From: a bacterium
Lineage (GTDB): Bacteria; Latescibacterota; UBA2968; GCA-2709665
Assembly: GCA_027619145.1 (NCBI GenBank)
Contig: JAQCGA010000235.1
Coordinates: 1 to 6,619, forward strand
Reading direction: 5' to 3'
DNA: 6,619 nucleotides
In this document: piece by piece, positions 1,015-6,619 of the stretch
Numbering within the stretch: the first letter of the stretch is position 1
Layout of the letters: each line of letters begins with the position of its first letter
Translations under genes and position numbers: made by a program
The notes under the pieces: model-generated
What the model saw: only the letters and a program-made list of their open reading frames with translations
Databases searched by the model: none
What the model was told of the DNA's origin: nothing

Positions 1015-1020
1015 ACCTCC
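1015..1020 (-). promoter_or_regulatory. Ribosome binding site GGAGGT for the ATP-grasp gene
   Basis: The minus strand reads GGAGGT, then 11 bases, then ATG at 1003. It is a full Shine-Dalgarno match and fixes the ATP-grasp start. It also shows that translation initiates independently, far from any upstream cistron. Confidence 0.75.
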
Positions 1021-1114
1021 ATAGGGAAGCAAGGTGAGTGTGATGTTAGAAAAACGGGTTGGGTGAAGAATGTTGGTCTGCATGTCACAAATCCTTGGGT
1101 TGAAAATCTGTCTC

Positions 1115-1211
1115 ACGCAAAGGCGCAGTCGAAGGCAGGAGCCGGAGACCGCCTGCCGAAGGCAGCCCCGAAGGGGCCGGTGCAGGATGCGCCGAGCGCA
1201 CGACGCAAAGG
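1115..1211. repeat. GC-rich structured repeat element flanked by ACGCAAAGG direct repeats
   Basis: ACGCAAAGG occurs at 1115-1123 and again at 1203-1211. Between the copies, GGCGCA (1122-1127) can pair with TGCGCC (1188-1193). This closes a branched fold containing two tight hairpins, CTGCC-GAA-GGCAG (1153-1165) and CCCC-GAA-GGGG (1166-1176). Read on the minus strand these have C(UUCG)G tetraloops, the stable RNA form, so the minus strand is the more likely functional strand if it is transcribed. GGCAGG (1134-1139) can alternatively pair with CCTGCC (1152-1157). It looks like a dispersed intergenic repeat (REP- or MITE-like). Copy number cannot be judged from one window. Confidence 0.55.
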
Positions 1212-1362
1212 GTGAAGCGATGCAGTTTCGAAGGTTCAACGTGAAAACGCAGCGCAAATATGATTCACTAATCCACAAGGCAAATTCGGTACCATTCGAA
1301 TATTGGGCTTTTATTCTATGTTTTTTTAGAAGCTGGGTAGACCAGGATGACAGAATAACGTG

Positions 1363-1671: not shown

Positions 1672-1805
1672 GAGAGCTTCGTTAGTGCGGCTATCCTTAG
1701 GTAGAAGGTGCGCCCGAAATCCGCTTCACCAGCCCCAAGCGCCCCTAAATGAGGACCCGTTCCTTTGCGTCCTACACTTTCGTGTAGTTTGCTTGATCGA
1801 AGATC
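1672..1805 (-). ncRNA. Cyclic-di-GMP-I (GEMM-I) riboswitch candidate
   Basis: The minus strand carries the family's conserved core in order. GCAAAC (1792-1787) leads into the perfect hairpin CTACAC-GAAA-GTGTAG (1787-1772), whose GAAA tetraloop is characteristic. GACGCAAAGG (1771-1762) follows, then ACGGGTCCT (1760-1752). The 3' half is GGATAGCCGCACTAACG (1696-1680), like the family's GA-AGCCGGG-U-CCG segment. Closing helix P1 is AGATCTTCG (1804-1796) with CGAAGCTCT (1680-1672): eight pairs, one mismatch. The P3 base is TCC/TTAGG (1755-1753, 1748-1744) with CCTAAGGA (1701-1694), capped by an unusually long arm (about 1743-1702). Known GEMM-I RNAs bind the second messenger c-di-GMP and control motility, biofilm and surface functions. 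The assignment rests on motif recognition, not a covariance-model score. Confidence 0.75.
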
Positions 1806-1811
1806 TGCGCA

Positions 1812-1840
1812 ATAATAACAGGTTTTTCTGCTTCCGTCAA
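1812..1840 (-). promoter_or_regulatory. Sigma-70-type promoter for the riboswitch RNA
   Basis: The minus strand reads TTGACG (1840-1835), a 17-base spacer, then TATTAT (1817-1812): 5/6 matches in both boxes with ideal spacing. Transcription would start near 1806-1804, exactly where the P1 helix of the riboswitch candidate begins. It starts only 20 bases after the aminotransferase stop, with no terminator between, so read-through from the upstream operon could also enter the leader. Confidence 0.75.
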
Positions 1841-1859: not shown

Positions 1860-3203
1860 CTATTTTTGTTTTTTCTGGATGTACTCCACGGCTGCTTCCA
1901 GCACACCCAGACCTTCGTCGAGTTGTTCATTCGGGATTGTTAACGGTGGAAGCAGACGGATACAGTTGCTGTAGAGGCCGGCGCGAATCAGCAGGAGGCC
2001 CTGGGAAACGGCCTGGCGAAGGATCTGCAAGGTTTGTTCGGGTGCCGGCGTTTTTTTTGCGCGGTCCAGCACGAATTCCACAATGCGCATCGCACCCAGA
2101 CCTCGGGTGTCTCCAATGAGAGGGTACTGGTCTTTCCACCGGTCCAGGGTATGGGCAATGCGTTCGCCGAGAGATTCGGCCTGTGCGAGAAAGTCCGGAC
2201 TGGAGACCTGTTTTAAAGTTTCCAGGGCGGCGGCGCAGGCTACGGGGCTTCCAGAGAATGTGCCACCCAGGCCGCCGGGGTGGGCTGCGTCCAGGATTTC
2301 TGCGCGGCCGGTTACAGCGCTTATGGGCAGGCCGGAGCCCAGGGATTTGGCCGTGGTAATAAGGTCCGGTACCACGTTGCTGTGTTCAATGGCAAAAAGC
2401 CGACCTGTGCGGGCAAATCCGGACTGGATTTCGTCTGCAATAAAGACGATGCCGTGTGTGTCGCAGAAACTGCGGATTTTTTCCAGGAAGGGATGGGGCA
2501 TGGCAATGAAACCGGCTTCGCCCTGGATGGGTTCAATGAGAACGGCGGCCACAGCCGAAGGATCCACCTGGGTAATGAAGGCGTTCTCGAACTGCCGGAT
2601 GCAGAAGTCTGTATATTGCGACTCGTCCATTGAGGAGGGTCTGTGATAGGGGTAGGGTGCAGGCAGGCGGTAGATTTCCGGGGCGAACGGACCAAAGCCT
2701 TTTTTGAAGAGGCCATATTTGCTGGTGAGGCTGAGCGTAAGGAGGGTTCGGCCGTGGTAGGCACCTTCGAAAACGACAATGGCTGCTCGGCCCGTGTAGA
2801 CCCGGGCGAGCTTGACTGCGTTTTCCACGGCTTCGGCACCAGAGTTTCCCAGGAGCGTTTTTTTGGGGAAGGTTCCGGGGGTGAGTTCGTTGAGGCGTTC
2901 GGCCAGAGCGACATAGGGTTCGTAGGTAGCCACCAGCGCACAGGCGTGCAGATATTTTTCGGCCTGGTCCTTGACGGCCTGGACCACTTTGGGCGGACAG
3001 TGGCCAGCGTTGAGCATGCCAATACCGCCGACCAGGTCGATGAGGGTGTTGCCGTCCACATCGTGAACCAGAGCACCTTCGGCGCGTTCAATGACAACGT
3101 CTGTAGAGCGGGCCAGGCCAGAGGGAGTAGCGGCTTCTCTGCGGGCGAGGAGTTTGCGACTTTTGGGGCCGGGAATTTCGGTGTTCAGGCGAATGGCGCT
3201 CAT
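1860..3203 (-). CDS. gabT: Class III PLP aminotransferase, GabT-like
   Basis: 447 residues from ATG at 3203, with TAG stop at 1860. The protein would transfer an amino group from an omega-amine such as 4-aminobutyrate to 2-oxoglutarate using pyridoxal phosphate in the cytoplasm. Visible family marks, numbered from this ATG: phosphate-binding GNSGAEAVENA (119-129), AYHGRT with Y149, IEPIQGE, IADEIQSG with D257, TTAKSLGSGLP with the PLP lysine K286, GGLGGTFSG, and SNCIRLLPPLT with R416 in the carboxylate-binding position. Length and motifs match GabT closely. A TTG at 3230 would add nine residues, but SAIRLNTEIPGPKS is the usual family beginning, so ATG is preferred; neither has a strong ribosome site. 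It follows the GNAT gene by 63 bases. In this cluster it could supply or remove an amino-acid building block. The exact substrate (GABA or another omega-amino acid) is not proven. Confidence 0.88.
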   Translation of the reverse strand: MSAIRLNTEIPGPKSRKLLARREAATPSGLARSTDVVIERAEGALVHDVDGNTLIDLVGGIGMLNAGHCPPKVVQAVKDQAEKYLHACALVATYEPYVALAERLNELTPGTFPKKTLLGNSGAEAVENAVKLARVYTGRAAIVVFEGAYHGRTLLTLSLTSKYGLFKKGFGPFAPEIYRLPAPYPYHRPSSMDESQYTDFCIRQFENAFITQVDPSAVAAVLIEPIQGEAGFIAMPHPFLEKIRSFCDTHGIVFIADEIQSGFARTGRLFAIEHSNVVPDLITTAKSLGSGLPISAVTGRAEILDAAHPGGLGGTFSGSPVACAAALETLKQVSSPDFLAQAESLGERIAHTLDRWKDQYPLIGDTRGLGAMRIVEFVLDRAKKTPAPEQTLQILRQAVSQGLLLIRAGLYSNCIRLLPPLTIPNEQLDEGLGVLEAAVEYIQKKQK

Positions 3204-3266
3204 GGCGTTCTCGAAATAAAAAGGTGACAAGTTGTCGTTGCCGGAGGCAAATTTACGGGGTTGGCT

Positions 3267-3930: not shown

Positions 3931-4536
3931 TCAAGAATGACCGTTGTCTCTCCACATCAGCAGGCACTCTCTGCTATTCTTCAGGCCGAAACAGAACTGG
4001 CGCTGGTCTGTAAATCCATCCAGCCATTCGCGGCGGATGGCCAGATTGGGATCGTTGCCAGATCGACGTTTCAGGACGCGTACATTGTCTTCCATATCAT
4101 CTTCAAGCGCTTGCCTGCGGTAAGGATCAAAGACGTAAATCCACTCTACGTCGGCCTTCAGGGCGAGAACGAAGTGTTCTTCGGCGTGTTTGAGCAGGAT
4201 ATTGCACAACGCCACGCCGCCGGAGTTGAGGCAGGTTACAATTTTATTGCCCTGGCGAAGGTGTACCTGGTCAAATTCCAGGTATTCTGTGCCTAAGGAG
4301 AACCGGCTGGTTTTGTAGGATGCCAGCCAGTTGCTGAGCAGTTGTACTGCGAACCGACTGGTGCCACCTTTGCCAACGTCTTCGTCATTGACGATTTCAT
4401 CCAGGCTGTAAATGAAGATGTGCCGAATGATCATGGGTGGGATGTCGCGGCGGTCGAAGAGGTGAATGAGCCCGTTAATCATGACGGTGGGGACGCAGTC
4501 GTATTCAGAAATCTGGTAGCGAAACGGAATTTTCAT
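3931..4536 (-). CDS. C39-like (papain-fold) cysteine peptidase domain protein
   Basis: 201 residues from ATG at 4536. The beginning MKIPFRYQISEYDCVPT matches the C39-type active-site entry: oxyanion glutamine Q8 and catalytic cysteine C14 in Q-x5-C spacing. The second half supplies H121 in EEHFVLALKAD and D137 in WIYVFDPY, the expected His and Asp of the triad. No membrane or ABC-exporter part is present, so this is a stand-alone domain, not a bacteriocin exporter. Such proteins may cut peptides or amides, or act as transferases. The reading frame is open to a TTG at 4614, but the promoter -35 and -10 boxes lie inside that extension, so the upstream start would not be transcribed. The chosen ATG has no clear Shine-Dalgarno and may be read from a short leader. 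It is the first gene of a three-gene operon with GNAT and aminotransferase. The fold call is good; the function is open. Confidence 0.7.
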   Translation of the reverse strand: MKIPFRYQISEYDCVPTVMINGLIHLFDRRDIPPMIIRHIFIYSLDEIVNDEDVGKGGTSRFAVQLLSNWLASYKTSRFSLGTEYLEFDQVHLRQGNKIVTCLNSGGVALCNILLKHAEEHFVLALKADVEWIYVFDPYRRQALEDDMEDNVRVLKRRSGNDPNLAIRREWLDGFTDQRQFCFGLKNSRECLLMWRDNGHS

Positions 4537-4743
4537 AACAGAAATTGGCCCAAACTGTGTAAGAAGGAAGGCGTTGTGTTCGATGTTTCGTAAGTAAAGA
4601 TCATACTGAAACAATTGGAGAAAGTCAATAAGCCGAAGACGGGGTCAGTTTCTGGGGTTTGCACATTCAGGAGGTGCGGGTTATCTTTAGAGATTGTTGG
4701 CCGAGTGCAGGATTCTGTTAACCACAGGTAGAGAGGCGGATGG
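4537..4743. promoter_or_regulatory. Divergent intergenic region between the C39 operon and uppP
   Basis: 207 bases separate two divergent genes. The minus-strand promoter is clear. For uppP only a weak plus-strand candidate is seen: TTTGCA (4658-4663), an 18-base spacer and TATCTT (4682-4687), 4/6 in each box. GAGAGG at 4731-4736 is the likely ribosome site of uppP, 7 bases before its GTG. A perfect AGGAGGTG at 4669-4676 has no start codon at a usable distance. Confidence 0.4.
4600..4628 (-). promoter_or_regulatory. Sigma-70-type promoter of the C39-GNAT-aminotransferase operon
   Basis: The minus strand reads TTGACT (4628-4623), a 17-base spacer, and TATGAT (4605-4600): 5/6 matches in both boxes. 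The start of transcription is expected near 4593, leaving a leader of about 57 bases before the ATG at 4536. It is divergent from uppP. Confidence 0.72.
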
Positions 4744-5523
4744 GTGACACTTTTTCAGGCGGTGGTTCTGGGGCTGGTACAGGGTATATCGGAGTTTTTG
4801 CCCATTAGCAGTTCGGGGCATCTTGTACTGGGGGAGGCTTTGCTGGGCGTACCGGCGGGTGATCTTACCTTTGAGGTGTTTGTACATTTTGGCACGTTGC
4901 TGGCGGTGTTGACGGCTTTGCGCGGACGGGTGTGGGTGCTGGTACAAGGTTGTTTTCGGCGGGAGGCTGCCGCTTGGCGGATGGTGCTGTTGTTGGGGCT
5001 GGGTACGGTGCCGGCTGGCATGATTGGCATTTTGTTTGAGGATGCTCTGGAGGTTATGTTTTCCAGTCCGGCGGCGGCTTCGGGTTGGCTGCTGGTGACT
5101 GGGGTTGTATTGTGGAGCACCCGATTCAGACAGGGGAGCCGGGAAGAGGTTGGCTTAAAAGATACAATATTAATTGGATTGGCGCAGGCATTTGCGATTT
5201 TGCCGGGAATTTCGCGTTCGGGAATGACCATCAGTATGGGGCTCTGGCGTGGTCTGGATGGACGAGAGGCGGCTACGTTTTCGTTTTTGCTGTCTATCCC
5301 TGTAATCCTGGGGGCAACGGTGCTTAAGGTGGGAGAACTGGTGGTGCATCCACCCGCACAGGAGGCGCTGGTTGCGTTGGGTGCAGGGACGGTAGCGGCA
5401 TACATTTCGGGAATACTGGCCATTCGCTGGTTGCTGGCTCTGTTGCAGGGAGGGCGCCTGGATCGGTTTGCCTATTATTGTTGGGCGGTTGGGGTATTGG
5501 GATTGGGAATGTTCTGGTTGTAA
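4744..5523 (+). CDS. uppP: Undecaprenyl-diphosphatase UppP (BacA family)
   Basis: 259 residues from GTG at 4744. An in-frame stop at 4729-4731 and the ribosome site GAGAGG (4731-4736) leave this as the only sensible start. The integral membrane enzyme removes a phosphate from undecaprenyl pyrophosphate at the outer face of the inner membrane. This recycles the lipid carrier for peptidoglycan and other wall polymers, and overexpression gives bacitracin resistance in known members. Both signature motifs are present: QGISEFLPISSSGHL (13-27, with the catalytic glutamates) and PGISRSG (154-160, R158), followed by REAATFSFLLSIPVILGA. The remainder is hydrophobic, with about seven to eight membrane segments, and the length is usual for the family. 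The next gene starts 34 bases downstream on the same strand and is probably co-transcribed. Confidence 0.95.
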   Translation: MTLFQAVVLGLVQGISEFLPISSSGHLVLGEALLGVPAGDLTFEVFVHFGTLLAVLTALRGRVWVLVQGCFRREAAAWRMVLLLGLGTVPAGMIGILFEDALEVMFSSPAAASGWLLVTGVVLWSTRFRQGSREEVGLKDTILIGLAQAFAILPGISRSGMTISMGLWRGLDGREAATFSFLLSIPVILGATVLKVGELVVHPPAQEALVALGAGTVAAYISGILAIRWLLALLQGGRLDRFAYYCWAVGVLGLGMFWL

Positions 5524-5557
5524 AATGGGGAAGGCTCGAAGGGAAGGAGCAGGAGAT

Positions 5558-5998
5558 ATGGAGTGGTGTGGATCAGGGGAGGCGCAATGGGTTTTGGGTA
5601 GGAGGTGGTTCTGGATAGGGGTTGTTGCTCTGTTTCTGTTCTGGGGCTGTGGAGAAAAATCCGTGGGTCTGGATGCAAACGAGCTTTCAAATATGCTGTC
5701 TCTGACAAACGTGAGCAAACAACCGATTCCAGACGTGCTGAACACATCTCAGGTTGCCGGGGTGGTGATTGATGTGGATGTGGTTCAGGTGGGAGATTTT
5801 CCGATCCTGGTGCCGTTTTTGATACGGTGGCAGATTCGGGATGCGCAGGGAGAGGTGCTGGGAGAAACCACCCGGCGTTTTGAGAAGGATCTGGCACCTG
5901 GAGCCCGTGTTCACACAACGCTGCGGGTCACGTTTTTAGCCCGGCCGAATTTGGGTGGATTGCAGGATCTGGTGACGTTTGACCCGCTGCCGAGATGA
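5558..5998 (+). CDS. Small lipoprotein or membrane-anchored protein of unknown function
   Basis: 146 residues from ATG at 5558, chosen because AAGGAG (5544-5549) lies 8 bases upstream; an in-frame ATG at 5525 would add 11 residues but lacks such a site. An N-terminal signal (R15-R16, then FWIGVVALFLFWGC, 18-31) ends in F-W-G-C31. Glycine before cysteine and the following GEKS suggest lipidation, although the bulky residues at -3 and -2 are not classical for a lipobox. Residues 45-143 are rich in alternating hydrophobic residues (GVVIDVDVVQVGDFPILVPFLIRWQI, LRVTFLARP), suggesting a beta-sandwich, perhaps LEA- or immunoglobulin-like. I do not recognise the family. It follows uppP by 34 bases, so an envelope role is plausible. 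No clear terminator follows. Confidence 0.6.
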   Translation: MEWCGSGEAQWVLGRRWFWIGVVALFLFWGCGEKSVGLDANELSNMLSLTNVSKQPIPDVLNTSQVAGVVIDVDVVQVGDFPILVPFLIRWQIRDAQGEVLGETTRRFEKDLAPGARVHTTLRVTFLARPNLGGLQDLVTFDPLPR

Positions 5999-6042
5999 GG
6001 GTGGCCAGGAGAATGTGCGGGAAATTTTGGTCCAGAAAAGGC

Positions 6043-6071
6043 TTGATCGGGTACCGAGAATATGGTATTAT
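6043..6071 (+). promoter_or_regulatory. Sigma-70-type promoter upstream of the phosphatase gene (distal)
   Basis: TTGATC (6043-6048), a 17-base spacer and TATTAT (6066-6071). The -10 box is 5/6 and the -35 box 4/6. It would give a leader of about 70 bases before ATG 6147. Confidence 0.5.
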
Positions 6072-6091
6072 GGGTGGCCAATTTTGCGCGA

Positions 6092-6120
6092 TTGAAATTG
6101 AAAAATTACATTCATATTGT
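6092..6120 (+). promoter_or_regulatory. Possible second, proximal promoter of the phosphatase gene
   Basis: TTGAAA (6092-6097; 5/6), a 17-base AT-rich spacer and TATTGT (6115-6120; 4/6). The start would fall near 6127, just before the ribosome site AGGGA (6132-6136). Confidence 0.4.
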
Positions 6121-6146
6121 TGCACTAGAACAGGGATATATGATAT

Positions 6147-6619
6147 ATGGAATTATATTTAATTCGCCACGGACAGTCGTTTAACAATGCATTGAAAGAT
6201 AGCAGTCAGCGGGTGTGTGATCCGCCTTTGACGGAGATTGGGGTGGCGCAGGCCGAGCGGGCAGGAGAATATTTGAAAGCGGCCTCGGCTGCACCGGGTT
6301 CGCTGGAAGTGGCTGCGGATGTGCAAAATAAAACTGGGTATGTCTTTACTCGAATTTTTTGTAGTGCCATGCTACGGACCTTGCAGACGACGTTGCCTAT
6401 TGCAAGGGCATTGGATATGCGGCCCGAGATCTGGCTGGATGTGCATGAAGAAGGCGGTATTTGGCGAGATGCAGGAGATGGGCAGGGACCGATTGGGTAT
6501 TCTGGTCTGGTGCGGGGAGAGATTGAGGCGCAGTTTCCGGGATTTGTGATTCCGGACGAGATTACAGAGAAAGGCTGGTGGAACCGCCCGGCAGAGACAA
6601 AAGAGGAGTGGACGGTTCG
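6147..6619 (+). CDS. Histidine phosphatase / phosphoglycerate mutase family protein (3' end cut by window edge)
   Basis: 157 residues are visible from ATG at 6147, preceded by AGGGA at a 10-base distance. The reading frame runs through the last base of the window. The N-terminal LIRHGQSFNN (5-14) is the RHG signature with the phospho-accepting H8. SAMLRTLQTTLPIA (73-86) supplies a phosphate-pocket arginine, and VHEEGGIW (99-106) the expected acid-base glutamate. Enzymes of this superfamily move or remove phosphate from small molecules or proteins through a phosphohistidine. Cofactor-dependent phosphoglycerate mutase, fructose-2,6-bisphosphatase and alpha-ribazole phosphatase are known examples. 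The insert at 50-66 and the segment WRDAGDGQGPIGYSGLVRGEIEAQFP are unlike classical glycolytic GpmA, so a phosphatase of unknown substrate is more likely. It appears to have its own promoter(s) and is not tightly linked to the upstream gene. Confidence 0.85.
   Translation, partial: MELYLIRHGQSFNNALKDSSQRVCDPPLTEIGVAQAERAGEYLKAASAAPGSLEVAADVQNKTGYVFTRIFCSAMLRTLQTTLPIARALDMRPEIWLDVHEEGGIWRDAGDGQGPIGYSGLVRGEIEAQFPGFVIPDEITEKGWWNRPAETKEEWTV

Follow-up and report, generated by a model that had tools for sequence, protein, structure and literature searches.

The locus described here raises the question of how a riboswitch aptamer can act on a gene that starts about 670 bases further on. It lies in a window of 6,619 nucleotides, the whole stretch of DNA that was analysed. 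We consider it probable that a gene cluster here contains an internal GEMM-I-family riboswitch, transcribed from a promoter of its own and working as a ligand-ON attenuator of the downstream ATP-grasp ligase gene. On the minus strand the order is GNAT acetyltransferase (3911-3267, assigned by domain search), class III aminotransferase (1860-3209, 4-aminobutyrate transaminase-like and directly before the riboswitch), riboswitch and ATP-grasp ligase (2-1003, PF13535). The ligase gene runs off the window and is the probable regulated gene; its ATG at 1003 follows a Shine-Dalgarno-like GGAGG (1016-1020, minus strand) and is 669 bases from position 1672, in agreement with the distance given by the earlier note on this DNA. 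The first five taxon-named matches of the ATP-grasp protein are from Candidatus Latescibacterota/Latescibacteria (four) and Gemmatimonadota (one), and the sole taxon-named row among the 120 listed GNAT matches is from Latescibacterota. One ATP-grasp match and one GNAT match share a longest contig of 148,437 bases, a hint that the cluster exists in another genome as well. A 227-aa frame upstream of the GNAT gene and in the same direction (3931-4614, minus strand) has no Pfam or NCBIfam match; its YQISEYDCVPT stretch may hint at a likeness to C39-like peptidases. Divergent genes on the plus strand (4744-6617) encode an undecaprenyl-diphosphatase, a frame without Pfam match and a histidine phosphatase.

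The leader begins with a promoter-like site (1812-1840, minus strand) composed of a -35 TTGACG (1840-1835), a spacer of 17 and an extended -10 (TGtTATTAT, with -10 hexamer TATTAT) ending at 1812. It has 10 of 12 consensus matches in the promoter scan, with an expected start near 1805. Because the scan count over the window is near the shuffle range (seven such sites against a shuffle mean of 4.3, sd 2.3), the site counts mainly by its position: P1 of the aptamer (CUUCG 1802-1798 / CGAAG 1681-1677) begins about 3 nt past the expected start. The earlier note's near-consensus promoter with a start at P1 is upheld as a promoter-like site, by position as much as by consensus. The aptamer itself, with a long P3, occupies 1677-1803 on the minus strand according to RF01051 and the predicted fold. 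The covariance scan proposed in that note (Rfam cmscan) returned RF01051 at 1803-1678 with 44.0 bits, above the gathering score of 35 (E value 2.6e-06), and the aptamer motifs it had claimed are all found in the order in which it gave them. GCAAAC, the GAAA-capped P2, GACGCAAAG and P1 are intact in the RF01051 alignment, in which the P2 hairpin with its GNRA loop stands between the GCAAA and GCAAAG positions, and minimum-energy folding of this stretch also gives the closed aptamer. The match spans 126 nt compared with the 87 positions of the model, so that the P3 arm is indeed long as had been remarked; four GEMM-I matches among those listed in one phylum are similarly long (123, 127, 131 and 132 nt). 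In P3 the tetraloop-receptor positions (UAA / uAu consensus) are gapped in the alignment, 52 nt replacing 6 consensus positions, and the lower helix contains two mismatched pairs.

For comparison, GEMM-I material was gathered from 15 viral contigs, from eight genomes that gave six hits, from one phylum with hits in 45 of 50 genomes and from a second phylum with hits in 189 of 249 genomes, an even sample of a larger group. For some of these hits the surrounding region was retrieved, 171 loci in addition to the window, and 121 distinct cores from 112 sources, which carried the core pattern with at least 250 nt behind it, were scored; one of them, L070 on the plus strand, looks spurious. In each of the three RF01051 searches over other genomes none of the 14 control genomes gave a signal, but strong hits were obtained. 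Three genomes of 2.3-2.4 million bases (G188, G193 and G203) had 13, 15 and 13 GEMM-I hits, some of them in close tandem pairs.

The ligand pocket departs from the c-di-GMP-I pattern at two places. The counterpart of G20 in Vc2, which we take to be the base directly before GCAAAC, is A in the RF01051 alignment of the window and a gap in the RF03167 alignment; among the 121 cores this base is G in 113, A in seven (the window and the spurious L070 included) and T in one. Five GEMM-I loci (L036, L041, L042, L065 and L129), found in three viral contigs and in two genomes from the same phylum as the Atribacterota-labelled genome G152, have A at the same position and GATAATA before GCAAA, and are candidate cGAMP-type riboswitches. 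According to the available text of PMC9262584, G20 of Vc2 corresponds to G11 of Cd1, and the base at the contact position is a selectivity factor and no hard filter; that of PMC9481103 describes the ligand-contact G as important for c-di-GMP binding and A for c-AMP-GMP binding. The second place is the 3' strand of the aptamer, CUAACGAAG. Most of the compared cores have (C/U)U(A/G)C ahead of P1, and we infer that its C is equivalent to the Watson-Crick partner of the ligand, reported as C87 in Cd1 and C75 in pilM in the available text of PMC9262584. In both the RF01051 and the RF03167 alignments this position holds A in the window. A permissive 3'-strand motif with the ligand-pairing C was matched by 118 of the 121 cores, a count that includes at least two matches at an implausible place (L044 and L137); it was missed in L051, L070 and the window. 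Two readings of the pocket remain: either A replaces the ligand-pairing C and the 5' linker has 5 nt, or an A has been inserted, so that C1681 becomes the partner, P1 is one pair shorter and the linker has 6 nt. Because the G20 equivalent is A and the ligand-pairing C is either replaced or displaced, c-di-GMP, the ligand assigned in the earlier note, is not supported; the receptor positions are gapped and two lower-helix pairs mismatched as well. Judged from its sequence, the aptamer is classed as a GEMM-I fold and not as a c-di-GMP sensor; with its ligand-binding residues altered, it could therefore be degenerate.

Repeat and chain searches revealed that the stretch noted earlier merely opens a longer repeated structure, which reaches to about 1392. 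Arm A1 (GCCGCACU, 1684-1691, minus strand, as are all arms) is the aptamer's own 3' strand and takes part in inverted repeats I5-I7. A linker (1592-1672) with two predicted hairpins brings it together with arm B1 (AGUGCGGC, 1584-1591), which the repeat search and folding identify as both the anti-A1 and the antiterminator strand. Arm A2 (AAGCCGCACA, 1560-1569) is predicted to pair with B1 or with B2 (UGUGCGGCUU, 1530-1539), the latter being the 3' arm of terminator site T1 (1524-1569), a hairpin at 1569-1530 followed by the U-tract UUUUUGUU (U5). Arm A3 (CCGCCGCAUA, 1508-1517) resembles the aptamer 3' strand (GCCGCA-UAAC vs GCCGCACUAAC) and is followed by B3 (ACAGUGCGGCGG, 1477-1488), which belongs to direct repeat D1. 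Arm A4 (CCGUACUGU, 1445-1453, from folding and the chain search) and arm B4 (GCAGUGCGG, 1417-1425) form the hairpin 1453-1417 of terminator site T2 (1410-1453), with B4 as its 3' arm and the U-tract UUUUUUU (U7) behind it, and arm A5 (CCGUACUGC, 1392-1400) offers B4 an alternative partner in place of A4. The nine arms, in the order A1-B1-A2-B2-A3-B3-A4-B4-A5, are thus one sequence and its complement, and each can pair with either neighbour. The repeat search over 1000-1860 gave three direct copies of a GCCGCAC-TCGAA motif (D1) at spacings of 53 and 52 bases, and inverted copies of the arm motif that include the aptamer 3' strand.

Both terminator sites were recovered by a wide scan of 1860-1000 (stem of at least 6 with at least 4 G-C pairs, then 5 or more T among the following 8), whereas a standard scan with loops of 3-8 picked up neither. 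Its five rows fall at two places: four end in the T1 region before UUUUUGUU, one is A4.B4 (T2), and past T2 the minus strand gave no terminator site. The 3' ends of the sites are B2 and B4, with none at B1 or B3. About 400 nt separate T2 from the ATP-grasp gene. A G+C-rich repeat-like element lies in between (1110-1215, plus strand), with ACGCAAAGG at 1115-1123 and 1203-1211 (D5); it may be a dispersed repeat that accounts for part of the extra leader length. A RAGATH-36 match on the plus strand (1078-1182) was dismissed as chance, with 16.8 bits against a cut-off of 70 and an E value of 0.81.

The shared arms exceed what shuffled sequence produces. The longest chain behind the aptamer has seven stems and eight arms (B1 to A5) in 297 nt, with A1 as a ninth arm, while 1000 dinucleotide shuffles gave a chain of 0 in 288 cases, 1 in 655, 2 in 54 and 3 in three. 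The length of seven is obtained at score thresholds of 14, 16 and 18 and falls to four at 20; the plus strand gives two at all four thresholds, and a plus-strand reading was rejected on this ground. Chains of at least three occur nowhere else when 297-nt windows are moved in steps of 50 along both strands. Among the 121 cores, ten have a chain of 0, 78 of 1, 29 of 2 and three of 3, and the window alone has 7. A pair of terminator-like sites within 400 nt is not as rare as the chain, being present in 11 of 114 single-aptamer cores, the window included. The difference between strands arises from C-to-U changes in the cores of A3, A4 and A5 relative to A1 and A2, by which pairing with GUGCGG is kept as G.U in the minus-strand RNA only. 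Since these changes are few, the bias is suggestive of kept pairing and no more. The best unit alignments join u1 with u3 and u2 with u4, and the alignment of the two halves was equalled by six of 2000 mononucleotide shuffles. This likeness, together with A3 copying the aptamer tail, is as expected if an A-B-A-B-U unit had been tandemly duplicated, and T2 looks like a duplicate of the T1 platform.

No homologous locus was found among the relatives searched by aminotransferase or ATP-grasp. Sixteen aminotransferase relatives were collected, and the eight loci scanned with Rfam (L001-L008) had no RF01051 match and two lysine riboswitches only. The nearest, L001, comes from a MAG labelled Armatimonadetes; its aminotransferase is 69% identical, its locus is without an RF01051 match, and RF01051 was also absent from the search of its genome, a search in which no control gave a signal. 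At 2925-4942 of L001 a GNAT gene precedes a class III aminotransferase gene as in the window, and the next gene is different. Searches for the ATP-grasp protein in the phylum of L001 (149 genomes) returned distant matches only, none of the 15 loci fetched exceeding 33% identity, and an alignment search of viral contigs returned none.

We propose that the arms form a switch with two serial stops. As read from sequence and predicted folding, A1 complements B1, B1 complements A2, A2 complements B2, and the U-tract after B2 completes the site T1. With ligand bound, A1 would be kept in the aptamer, B1 would be free to capture the emerging A2, and T1 would be blocked; with ligand absent, A1.B1 would pair and A2.B2 would stop transcription at about 280 nt. 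A similar second unit (A3-B3-A4-B4) follows, which has a further U-tract (T2) and the spare arm A5, and because all arms share one sequence the state could be handed on through T2. In the ON state, B1 holding A2 might let B2.A3, B3.A4 and B4.A5 form, so that T2 fails too, and in the OFF state, B2 holding A2 might let A3.B3 and A4.B4 form, so that T2 backs up T1; this hand-over is the weaker part of the proposal. The product of the OFF state would be the attenuated RNA (about 280 or 395 nt), which might also act as a small RNA, and one sensor acting on two serial stops would explain the distance of the aptamer from its gene. An extended version, in which the ligand shifts the register of all nine arms by one through both terminators while the A/A pocket reads a cyclic dinucleotide other than c-di-GMP, seems unlikely to hold in full.

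In predicted energy the 427-nt RNA folds below 100 of 100 shuffles (z -6.85). The A1.B1 duplex is worth -20.6 kcal/mol and the A1-B1 segment folds at -41.8 kcal/mol; the A2 hairpins reach -19.5 with B1 and -20.7 kcal/mol with B2, and the neighbour hairpins from B1-A2 through B4-A5 range from -15.3 to -20.7 kcal/mol. The T1, T2 and B4-A5 hairpins have -21.0, -18.2 and -17.7 kcal/mol, respectively. For RNA ends from 1676 to 1588 the closed aptamer is 0 to 2.9 kcal/mol above the best fold, and once B1 is out (end at 1580) A1.B1 is favoured by 7.4 kcal/mol, a difference small enough for the binding of a ligand to cover. When the RNA that ends at T1 is folded without constraints, the OFF fold comes out best (-102.3 kcal/mol). 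Even with the aptamer closed, the terminator is still better, the T1 hairpin giving -95.4 and B1.A2 -88.9 kcal/mol, and the ON state must therefore be kinetic. The predicted barrier for refolding from B1.A2 to A2.B2 is 14.9-16.5 kcal/mol; in the second unit it is 15.1-18.4 kcal/mol from B2.A3 to A3.B3 and only 8.4 kcal/mol from B3.A4 to A4.B4. In longer RNAs the free best fold lies below the OFF fold, by 5.2 kcal/mol for the RNA to 1408 (-156.7 vs -151.5) and by 7.5 kcal/mol for the RNA to 1388 (-162.7 vs -155.2), and longer-range pairings therefore compete.

Transcription was simulated with a coarse kinetic model (12 settings, 150 runs per state) whose rates we chose ourselves and which shows what conclusions depend on those rates. 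With the aptamer locked, termination at T1 was 0.00 in all 12 settings; with the aptamer free it was 0.05-1.00, the low values coming from the slowest refolding constant. Of the locked runs, 0.03-1.00 ended at T2, and at least 0.37 in eight of the 12 settings. Full-length RNA was made in 0.78-0.97 of locked vs 0.65-0.89 of free runs at the slowest refolding constant, 0.07-0.63 vs 0.01-0.32 at the middle one and 0.00-0.01 vs 0.00 at the fastest, a moderate difference only, at best 0.63 vs 0.13. A ligand response at T1 is the better supported part of the proposal; a hand-over to T2 is less so, since T2 often fires in the model whatever the state of the aptamer.

Other readings have to be weighed; they are not mutually exclusive, and the confidence placed in them need not add up to one. 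That the aptamer has decayed or changed its ligand, so that the attenuator is constitutive or otherwise triggered, or senses another cyclic dinucleotide, is a possibility to be taken seriously, if not the leading one. The A at the G20 position and the lack of a ligand-pairing C in the RF01051 alignment would fit it, with the window among the three motif misses in 121 cores, as would the gapped receptor positions and the two mismatched lower-helix pairs; the retention of GCAAAC, GAAA-capped P2, GACGCAAAG and P1 and a score above the curated cut-off argue against it, and a one-base insertion would restore the C together with a 6-nt linker. We are doubtful of an arrangement as in Bc1, in which T1 would respond to ligand, T2 would be constitutive and mask or tighten the switch, and the second-unit arms would be inherited by duplication without serving a relay. 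Bc1 has two terminators on one aptamer, with T2 nearly intact when ligand is present (PMC11218506, available text), and the low barrier to T2 (8.4 kcal/mol), the arrest at T2 of at least 0.37 of locked runs in eight of 12 settings and the occurrence of two terminator-like sites within 400 nt in 10 of the 113 other single-aptamer cores all accord with such an arrangement. However, the second unit has kept arms that can pair on either side, and only in the strand that is transcribed, and A5 would be useless to a plain terminator, yet it balances the ON fold (-146.0 vs -146.5 kcal/mol for the closed aptamer with both terminators).

The RNA itself might be what the locus is for: transcripts terminated at about 280 or 395 nt would act in trans as small RNAs, their ends defined by the promoter-like site and the two terminator sites; this we hold to be improbable, given a same-strand ATP-grasp gene with a Shine-Dalgarno-like site and, in the scan used, no further terminator site between. 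Of the two options that the earlier note had offered, a long regulated leader or an RNA product, it is the long leader that is favoured, because T1 and T2 lie in the gap, no terminator site follows T2 in the wide scan and GGAGG precedes the gene. Least probable is a REP-like repeat array without relation to the riboswitch: three copies at 53- and 52-nt spacing (D1) and the G+C-rich repeat-like element nearby (about 1110-1215) are suggestive of one, but A1 is part of the aptamer itself, two U-tracts stand on the matching strand, the chain is seven on one strand vs two on the other, and chains of at least three are confined to this place (297-nt windows, both strands).

If the ligand-ON attenuator with two serial stops is real, one sensor would govern two stops through a shared strand code, a natural cascaded RNA strand exchange giving a tighter OFF state without a second aptamer. 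Tandem duplication of the platform suggests a simple route for attenuator growth. The altered pocket would mean that a Latescibacterota-like organism has a riboswitch of the cyclic-dinucleotide type, with an uncertain ligand and a link to a cluster with an amino-acid ligase.

In the open-licence literature searched, no account of a shared-arm chain or relay on one aptamer was found, and Bc1 was the sole close precedent for tandem terminators on one aptamer found there, other papers being judged by title and the start of the abstract. Among known families, RF01051 (c-di-GMP-I) is like the window in its fold, GAAA-loop P2, GCAAAC and GACGCAAAG, with a score above the cut-off; the window differs by the A at the G20 position, the replaced or displaced pairing C and the gapped receptor positions, and its 44 bits compare with 53.7-95.4 for the best rows among the matches listed. 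The c-di-GMP-I-GGC family (RF03167), which models P1, matches the window too (38.2 bits, the clan row kept in a 901-base search with an E-value threshold), but far under its 59-bit cut-off and with A in place of the G in GCAAAG. It is common for c-di-GMP-I aptamers to occur in tandem, with 347 doublets and 12 triplets reported in the available text of PMC9481103. Bc1 of Bacillus thuringiensis combines, like the window with its predicted terminators, one c-di-GMP-I aptamer, a long platform and two intrinsic terminators, of which the ligand unfolds T1 and leaves T2 almost intact; unlike the window, no shared-arm chain is described for it in the available text (PMC11218506). GEMM-Ib riboswitches (cGAMP, c-AMP-GMP) such as pilM of Geobacter metallireducens share with the window the A at the selectivity position (PMC9262584 and PMC9481103, available text). 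The pilM riboswitch is a cGAMP ON switch that works by terminator competition (PMC9262584), and its C75, as described there, is without a plain counterpart in the window aptamer. In the part of that account available, the pilM terminator is built with the aptamer strand itself (T, A, H), whereas the window interposes B1 and A2 between aptamer and terminator and adds a second unit.
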